Assembly (NCBI RefSeq): GCF_028421645.1
Contig: NZ_CP116887.1
Coordinates: forward strand, 2,978,001 to 3,042,000
DNA from: Aneurinibacillus sp. Ricciae_BoGa-3
Lineage (GTDB): Bacteria > Bacillota > Bacilli > Aneurinibacillales > Aneurinibacillaceae
DNA: 64,000 bases
Direction: 5' to 3'
Shown here one piece after another: positions 25,709-57,862 of this stretch; within the stretch, counting starts at the first letter, position 1, and each line of letters opens with the position of its first letter. The notes under the pieces are model-generated. The model made no database searches and was not told the DNA's origin. It was given only the letters and a program-made list of their open reading frames with translations. The position numbers and the translations under genes were made by a program.

Positions 25709-26401
25709 CTACTGTGCAAAAGTATGATCGCCTATCACCGTTATAACGGGGCGAGTGCGTATCCAGGCATCATCCGTCAATTTGGGATCATAAAAATACA
25801 AAGCCCCATTGGTGGGATCCTGTCCAAAAAATGCTTCCCGCGCTGCGCTTCTGGAGGACGCCGATACGCTGACATTGTATATTCGGCCGTTTGCAACGGG
25901 TTCAAACTGATAAAAACCACCGCGATGCTGAAAAATAACCGCTTTTATGTTCTTGGGAAATTCATGATGCTTGACCCGGTTCATCACAACACTGCCAACA
26001 GCGATACGCCCCTTGTATGATTGATCGCCCGCTTCGGCTTCAATAATTCGTGCCAGCAGATTAATTTGCTCGTTCTGCCAGGCCGCCTTTCGTTTTTGTT
26101 TTTGCTGCTCAGCCAGATATGCCATCTGCTTTTCCTGTTTTTGCTGCTCAGCTAACAAGGCTAAATGTTTGATAATCATTCTTTTCTCGCTGTCTCTGTC
26201 GTCCATTGCTTCTAATTTGTCCTTACGTACGACAGGTTGTCCATTTATTTGGAACAGCATTTTTCCAGCGCCTTTTTCCACCTTAATAGGTGCTTTCATC
26301 ACAGGGCTTGTAGAATGACCAGCCGAAAGGCCGAAGCGGATTGCCGAAGCACATAGGACGGCTGTCAACAGGTACCAGACTACTTTGTTTACCAGCGGCA
26401 T
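25709..26401 (-). CDS. Spore cortex-lytic enzyme-like cell wall hydrolase (SleB/CwlJ domain)
   Basis: 230-residue exported protein. An N-terminal hydrophobic segment (about 5-26) acts as signal or anchor. A coiled region with a repeated LAEQQKQ motif occupies about residues 85-110. The C-terminal Hydrolase_2 domain (about 112-230) has LLARIIEAEAGDQSYKGRIA with the catalytic Glu, VGSVVMNRVKHHEFP and the closing GALYFYDPK. The domain is that of SleB/CwlJ lytic transglycosylases of spore germination. The peptidoglycan-binding domain of true SleB is absent, so it may be a vegetative or YkvT-like relative. It lies downstream of nth on the same strand, separated by a terminator. Confidence 0.85.
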   Translation of the reverse strand: MPLVNKVVWYLLTAVLCASAIRFGLSAGHSTSPVMKAPIKVEKGAGKMLFQINGQPVVRKDKLEAMDDRDSEKRMIIKHLALLAEQQKQEKQMAYLAEQQKQKRKAAWQNEQINLLARIIEAEAGDQSYKGRIAVGSVVMNRVKHHEFPKNIKAVIFQHRGGFYQFEPVANGRIYNVSVSASSRSAAREAFFGQDPTNGALYFYDPKLTDDAWIRTRPVITVIGDHTFAQ

Positions 26402-30207: not shown

Positions 30208-30630
30208 TTACTCTTCCCTACTTGCGCCGGACCAACCCATCCCTGGACCACCTGCTCCTGGCGAACCCATTCCGGACCAACCAGTTCCAGCTGATCCCAT
30301 ACCCGGCCAACCGCCGCCCGATCCACTCATACCTGGCCAACCGCCACCTGGTGTACCCATTCCGGACCAACCGCTGCCTGGCCATGATGTGCCGGAAGAT
30401 CCAGGGGTTCCTACACCTGACCAACCTGAACCGCTTCCTGAGCTTTCCCAGGCTGGATCCTTACCGGGTCCTCCATGTTTTGATTGCATATATAAGCGAT
30501 CTACACATTGTGTGTGATAATAATGTTTTCTATAAAAATGATCATGCAATTGTGGATTCTCGTATTTGTATTTTTTCATTAATAACCCGTATAACTCAGC
30601 TTTTTTCAGGTGATATCTTAATTTATCCAT
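30208..30630 (-). CDS. Gly/Ser/Trp/Met-rich repeat protein, possible spore-surface protein
   Basis: 140 residues. The first 52 are a charged helix-like domain rich in Tyr, Lys and His (MDKLRYHLKKAELYGLLMKK, then HDHFYRKHYYHTQCV). The rest is low-complexity and built from imperfect units such as GSGWSGMGTPG and GGGWPGM, with Trp, Gly, Pro, Ser and Met at regular spacing. No signal peptide. The ATG at 30630 follows GGGGAGGCAAGAG. Repeat-rich Tyr/His/Gly proteins in spore formers are often coat or exosporium proteins, but I do not recognise a named family. A good terminator follows. Confidence 0.7.
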   Translation of the reverse strand: MDKLRYHLKKAELYGLLMKKYKYENPQLHDHFYRKHYYHTQCVDRLYMQSKHGGPGKDPAWESSGSGSGWSGVGTPGSSGTSWPGSGWSGMGTPGGGWPGMSGSGGGWPGMGSAGTGWSGMGSPGAGGPGMGWSGASREE

Positions 30631-30686
30631 TCTCTTGCCTCCCCAATGTTTTTCTTACCTACGAAAATATACATATGCGGAGGCCT

Positions 30687-30719
30687 ATGAAGGTGTATGG
30701 GCGTTTGTCCATAAAATGA
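30687..30719 (+). CDS. Possible 10-residue leader peptide
   Basis: ATG at 30687 lies 2-3 bases after CGGAGG and encodes MKVYGRLSIK; its TGA overlaps the ATG of the next small gene (ATGA). Too short to be sure. Confidence 0.3.
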   Translation: MKVYGRLSIK

Positions 30720-30885: not shown

Positions 30886-31146
30886 TTATGTCACTATCCA
30901 CTTATGTCCATCATTCAAACTGTTGGTTAGTGCATTCCGTACATCGCCAGCATTTGTTGCTTCATTACTTACATCGATCACTGCAACCGTCTGTTTTGTT
31001 CCGGCTTTATACTGAATCTCTACTTTGTAATTCTGACCTATACCCACAGCATCCAAGTGAAATTTATCTGAGGTATAGATACTGTTTCTAGTTCTCATAA
31101 TTGTACTAATGTCAGTGATATCGGCAATGATATCATTCTGAATCAT
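30886..31146 (-). CDS. 86-residue protein of unknown function
   Basis: Starts MIQNDIIADITDISTIMRTR and has an alternating strand pattern (YKVEIQYKAGTKQTVAVIDV). The ATG at 31146 has only a weak GTAGG upstream. No signal peptide or membrane segment. No known family. It ends just before the bidirectional terminator. Confidence 0.55.
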   Translation of the reverse strand: MIQNDIIADITDISTIMRTRNSIYTSDKFHLDAVGIGQNYKVEIQYKAGTKQTVAVIDVSNEATNAGDVRNALTNSLNDGHKWIVT

Positions 31147-57595: not shown

Positions 57596-57718
57596 CAGGT
57601 TCACTCCTTGCAAGATGGCTTTCCTACTGATTATATACTATTTCCTCATAATATATTGACGTACTTTATTTTTCATGGCATATTTCTAATAGGATTGTGA
57701 AACAAATTTCATATTGAA

Positions 57719-57856
57719 TCCTTCGGGGCAGGGTGAAATTCCCTACCGGCGGTGATGGATCATTGGATCCTCAGTCCGTGACCCGCGAGCAAAAGCAAGC
57801 GGTGGACCTGGTGCAAGTCCGGGACCGACAGTATAGTCTGGATGGGAGAAGGGAGA
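57719..57856 (+). ncRNA. FMN riboswitch (RFN element)
   Basis: Contains the RFN signature: GGGGCAGGGTGAAATTCCCT, ACCGGCGGTGAT, CAGTCCGTGACCCGCGAGC, GGTGCAAGTCCGGGACCGACAG-type segments and GATGGGAGAAG. It lies directly upstream of ribU, and its 3' end runs into the ribosome binding site, so FMN probably blocks translation of the riboflavin transporter. Confidence 0.95.
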
Positions 57857-57862
57857 ATGTAA

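Follow-up and report, generated by a model that had tools for sequence, protein, structure and literature searches.

The question raised by this locus is what is encoded by a short gene of Aneurinibacillus sp. Ricciae_BoGa-3 whose product ends in a regular Gly/Ser/Trp/Met repeat. The gene lies in a window of 64,000 nucleotides (the whole stretch of DNA that was analysed), where the following coding features were recognized.

30208 to 30630, minus strand: whole open reading frame, 140 amino acids, with start codon ATG at 30630 and ribosome-binding site GGGGAGG
30638 to 30644, minus strand: ribosome-binding site GGGGAGG, seven bases upstream of the ATG
30475 to 30630, minus strand: N-terminal Tyr/His/Lys-rich helical-hairpin domain, residues 1–52 (AlphaFold2 model and homologous domains)
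30211 to 30471, minus strand: Gly/Ser/Trp/Met low-complexity tail, residues 54–140 (composition and shuffles; predicted disordered, block pLDDT 43–66)
30234 to 30381, minus strand: 30-bp tandem repeat encoding the decapeptide GW(S/P)GMG(S/T)xGx (TRF, 4.9 copies, 71% matches)

The open reading frame is real, and its decapeptide repeat is far beyond chance. The 87-residue tail (Gly 33, Ser 17, Pro 9, Trp 8, Met 5) carries the motif GW(S/P)G six times, compared with a mean of 0.34 in composition shuffles, and GW(S/P)GM four times, compared with a mean of 0.02; none of 10,000 shuffles reached six copies of the former or four of the latter. All five Met residues of the tail are spaced by exactly 10 residues. 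Residues 1–53 contain 8 Tyr, 6 His, 8 Lys, and 3 Arg. A preliminary description of this DNA had named both a frame with GWSGMG and GWPGM units and a Tyr/His-rich N-terminal domain, and the reading frame with its ribosome-binding site, the motif counts, and the 8 Tyr and 6 His bear out these two points.

Searches of family catalogues with the window protein yielded no Pfam family at E values up to 10, DUF4397 (PF14344) included, and no NCBIfam match. The N-terminal domain, hereafter the head, was examined in 38 members of the family identified below. None of them matched Pfam or NCBIfam above the curated cut-offs within the head (best E 0.015 for Pfam and 0.037 for NCBIfam), and no family was common to more than four of the 38 members. 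Two candidates were attributed to chance: FAINT (PF04385) on the paralog L003 (E 0.039, below cut-off) and DUF2989, which came up for 4 of the 38 members (best E 0.016). A PDB sequence search with the head gave nothing usable. Nevertheless, the head follows the pattern KAxxYxLLAxYYKYxDPxxHxxYYQKH and finds relatives in other genomes by single-sequence matches with E values down to 4e-19; the A5 head profile matches the window protein at 6e-19, partly by construction, as that protein is a row of the alignment. The head domain is apparently undescribed. Hence the earlier label of an unknown family holds for the Pfam and NCBIfam catalogues, but the head itself defines a family across Bacilli. Likewise the Trp-Gly-Met tail singled out at that stage is a real repeat, but it is only one of several different tails carried by the same head.

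An AlphaFold2 model of the window protein, built on 29 alignment rows, places helices at residues 2–21 and 26–52, with pLDDT values of 94–98 over residues 1–50 and a disordered tail. A second member, the Rossellomorea-type DUF4397 protein L067, was modeled with a mean pLDDT of 92 as a hairpin from residue 3 followed by beta-strands. Two helices with a short turn are thus present in the predicted models of both members. Compared with PDB folds, the window model had no match at E below 2, a helical hairpin by itself being too generic a shape. The beta part of the DUF4397 model resembles the PepT2 ectodomain (5a9i, TMt 0.72) and AlgF domains. No signal peptide is seen in either modeled protein, since the predicted helix begins at residue 2 or 3 in both and leaves no room for one.

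The distribution of the head was established in a sample of 398 Bacilli genomes. The first head profile matched 32 of these, and an enlarged profile matched 34, which belong to 24 of the 145 genera sampled; two of the 34 are weak matches (G265 and G391), and that in G391 holds stops. The one other genome of the window's genus in the sample (G001) is without the head domain, and G002, listed in the same taxonomic family under another genus, yielded matched proteins that are the same as those of Aneurinibacillus tyrosinisolvens. Almost nothing was found outside the class: 3 of the 299 genomes of a phylum-wide sample were matched, two of them already known, and the third match, with an internal stop, was taken as chance. 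No family member was found on a plasmid. A first profile search of contigs confirmed no relative, and a wider alignment then gave 45 loci. The closest relative is that of Aneurinibacillus tyrosinisolvens, and others come from Domibacillus, Brevibacillus, Virgibacillus, Rossellomorea, Priestia, Sporosarcina, Melghirimyces, Kroppenstedtia, and further genera.

Three architectures recur among these proteins. The head stands alone or with a short tail in proteins of about 60–80 amino acids (Brevibacillus, Sporosarcina, Kroppenstedtia), is followed by a repeat tail (the window protein, its paralog L005, and Domibacillus proteins with NNAPHMMPEGY-like units), or precedes two DUF4397 domains. Of 10 relatives that were scanned, 9 match PF14344 outside the head; the remaining one, from Domibacillus, has no match. 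The tails differ between members, and several are of low complexity. At one locus (L040:820-1953, minus strand) two head genes adjoin, encoding 58 amino acids and 276 amino acids, the latter with DUF4397. On a head tree, poorly resolved over its 59 columns, the tail would have switched four times between DUF4397 and another type, and a tree that holds all DUF4397 members as one clade is disfavored (p-AU 0.01, although long branches are involved). These comparisons suggest that tails have been exchanged on the head repeatedly.

A search of the organism's own genome with the head located five places, the window copy and four paralogs. The head of L002 is 69% identical to that of the window protein and is followed by GWPGMG-type repeats; at this copy (L002:1491-1842, plus strand) the promoter block described below and the repeat tail are intact, and a frameshift lies a few codons past the start. 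L003 and L004 encode 87 amino acids each, with head and tail shortened, the tails much so. L005 (L005:877-1647, minus strand) encodes 256 amino acids with GQYPGQSQTGGWS repeats, comprising about nine near-identical GQYPxQSQTGxWx units, and then TGGTPS-type repeats. Genes of this family appear to arise and disappear rapidly.

Evidence on the timing of expression comes from the upstream regions. A pattern scan of the genome delimited the following elements.

30668 to 30702, minus strand: promoter block GCCNATACANNNTCNNNNNCCTCCGCATATGTATA, common to the window gene and three paralogs
30669 to 30678, minus strand: putative mother-cell −10 element GCATATGTAT, within the block
30694 to 30698, minus strand: putative mother-cell −35 element ATACA, within the block

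With up to three mismatches allowed, the genome contains the 35-base block exactly four times, each time upstream of a family member, and does not contain the reversed control pattern. Note that this confinement is due in part to recent duplication, as the 90-base upstream regions of the block-bearing copies are identical pairwise at 70–76 of about 90 positions. We therefore turn to the family at large, for which 85 located rows were reduced to 37 by removal of near-duplicates, 36 of them usable for a count of CATA. Of the 36 non-redundant members, 30 have this tetranucleotide between −55 and −31 relative to the start, compared with 7 of 98 control ORFs taken from these loci; many of the controls may sit inside operons without a promoter of their own, which favors the contrast. 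Other 25-base segments of the same upstream regions contain CATA in only 4 to 8 of 37 members. The aligned −10 element reads gCATAtgcTa, with a G before CATA in 25 of 30 members and, taking the C of CATA as position 1, a T at position 8, also in 25 of 30; AC stands 16 or 17 bases upstream of it in 16 occurrences among the 30 members.

For comparison with sigma-K we used the B. subtilis consensus letters KCACM and GCATANNNTA as tabulated in PMC3416734 and the 14- to 16-base gap stated in PMC517825. At least 9 of 12 positions of KCACM-N14-16-GCATANNNTA are matched upstream of 28 of 37 members versus 8 of 98 controls, and a perfect 12 of 12 is found for 6 members versus no control. The sigma-E consensus separates the groups far less, with at least 11 of 15 positions matched by 11 of 37 members versus 9 of 98 controls. 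An exact scan for AC-N15-18-CATANNNTA recovers only 8 of 37 members, the window copy not among them, and consensus scoring is the fairer test. For sigma-K, the window promoter and those of the three block-bearing paralogs all score only 8 of 12 (L003 read by eye from the block); the sigma-E score of the window promoter is 9 of 15. Because 54 of 98 controls score at least 8 for sigma-K, the putative assignment of the window promoter leans on conservation in the family and the paralogs. Judged from these sequence patterns, late mother-cell expression is a well supported prediction for the family and a moderately supported one for the window copy.

A role in the spore had been implied in the preliminary description, and two lines of evidence lend it strong if indirect support: the sigma-K-type promoters of the family and the company that the head keeps in genomes. 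SpoIVA (PF09547) is present in 268 of the 398 Bacilli genomes and absent from 130, and all 34 head-positive genomes carry it, the two lists having been compared by reading. The overlap has a hypergeometric probability of 7e-7 with phylogeny ignored. A family that serves spores should show such co-occurrence, but phylogeny alone could help to produce it. The head is present in just 34 of the 268 SpoIVA-bearing genomes and is missing from the other genome of the genus, and we therefore do not regard the family as a core part of the coat. A literature search found no report of any family member in a spore and no paper joining DUF4397 with spores, the papers that name DUF4397 concerning other matters as far as their titles tell. 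A place in the coat itself is putative.

On this evidence the product of the gene is probably a mother-cell protein that depends on sigma-K, appears late, and belongs to the outer layers of the spore (coat, crust, or exosporium); it is probably a repeat-tailed coat protein variant on an apparently undescribed head. We infer its placement in the spore, the docking of the hairpin, and the role of the tail as follows. The protein would be synthesized late in the mother-cell cytoplasm under sigma-K control. Its N-terminal hairpin would dock on, or self-associate within, the growing spore envelope, and the Gly/Ser/Trp/Met tail, extended, flexible, and sticky, would fill or coat the layer. Hydrophobic packing or oxidative cross-linking may be what the Trp and Met residues of the tail and the Tyr-rich head contribute.

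Known systems offer several partial parallels. The DUF4397 proteins of Bacilli share a homologous head (profile E down to about 1e-22) and the same promoter type, but carry two beta-sandwich domains in the position taken by the repeat in the window protein. Exosporium proteins of the BclA type carry a short N-terminal targeting motif before a collagen-like region with a variable repeat. They resemble the head family in joining a common N-terminal module to different C-terminal parts, whereas the head of the window protein is a 50-residue helical hairpin in place of a short motif and its tail is not collagen-like. The coat proteins CotB and CotG combine mother-cell timing with a repeat-rich composition, and the repeats of CotB are serine-rich and phosphorylated by CotH. 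The window protein is like them in predicted timing and repeat-rich make-up, a likeness by description, but its repeat is of Gly/Trp/Met in contrast to the serine-rich repeat of CotB. Both B. subtilis proteins are low-complexity, repeat-bearing coat proteins (PMC7821199). Brevibacillus laterosporus has the spore-envelope proteins CpbA and CpbB, uncharacterized according to PMC5335551, and its genus also has the head family (L063, L084).

The most durable alternative, which we nonetheless consider unlikely, is a mother-cell protein under sigma-E or sigma-K that is not structural but soluble or parasporal, for example a small coat-assembly chaperone or scaffold to which the tail is incidental. 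Members of about 60–80 amino acids lack a real tail, and therefore the hairpin alone must do something; moreover, 2 of 37 member promoters reach 12 of 15 for sigma-E. However, several members bear long repeat tails or extracellular-like DUF4397 pairs, as expected of proteins that are displayed or packed. A vegetative cell-surface or secreted structural protein would fit with the Gly-rich repeats common in extracellular proteins and with the DUF4397 pairs, which model as beta-sandwiches like extracellular domains, but we judge it very improbable given hairpins that start at residue 2 or 3 and leave no room for a signal peptide, promoters of mother-cell type, and no member in class-sample genomes without SpoIVA. 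Least probable of all is a decaying family without present function, the window copy being a relic open by chance, as the frameshift in L002, the much shorter tails of L003 and L004, and the absence of the family from G001 are set against a window frame that is open, with ribosome-binding site and promoter block kept and a regular repeat, and against a head kept by relatives in distant genera.

Returning to the reading as an outer spore-layer protein, the same head carries Gly-Trp-Met silk-like repeats, Gln/Gly/Trp repeats, Met/Asn/Tyr repeats, or paired DUF4397 sandwiches. The hairpin could be a portable module that targets unrelated cargos to the spore envelope across Bacilli, a proposal that we advance tentatively and hold at somewhat below even chances. 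If true, the hairpin would mark out a new class of spore-surface proteins, and DUF4397 in spore formers would acquire a location. The outer layers of spores are very different from one genus to another, and only for a few species is it understood how proteins are directed to them. A head that recurs with unrelated tails, occurs among the sampled genomes only in spore formers, and is preceded by putative late mother-cell promoters is a candidate addressing or assembly module. With such a module, some DUF4397 proteins would be assigned to the spore, and spore display might gain an anchor. The decapeptide tail with its Trp and Met is of unusual composition, and its physical role is open to study.

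The genomic surroundings were said at the outset to give no clue, which holds for the nearest genes, encoding a Zn-dependent (alcohol) dehydrogenase, Fur, and ZnuA (zinc uptake). A cell-wall hydrolase gene of Hydrolase_2 (PF07486), which we take to be the Pfam family of SleB/CwlJ, lies 3.8 kb from the repeat gene (25709–26401, minus strand) and is weak evidence at most for a spore connection. No sporulation operon was seen around 16 named loci, whose varied surroundings were read by eye, and coat protein genes are often scattered single genes. Four to six DUF4397 loci have neighbor types in common, an RsgA-like and a YpmS-like gene by eye. An 86-amino-acid open reading frame (30886–31146, minus strand) adjoins the repeat gene and has no Pfam match at E values up to 0.01. 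Elsewhere in the window, the sole Rfam match is an FMN riboswitch aptamer (RFN element, RF00050, 112 bits) at 57715–57857 on the plus strand.
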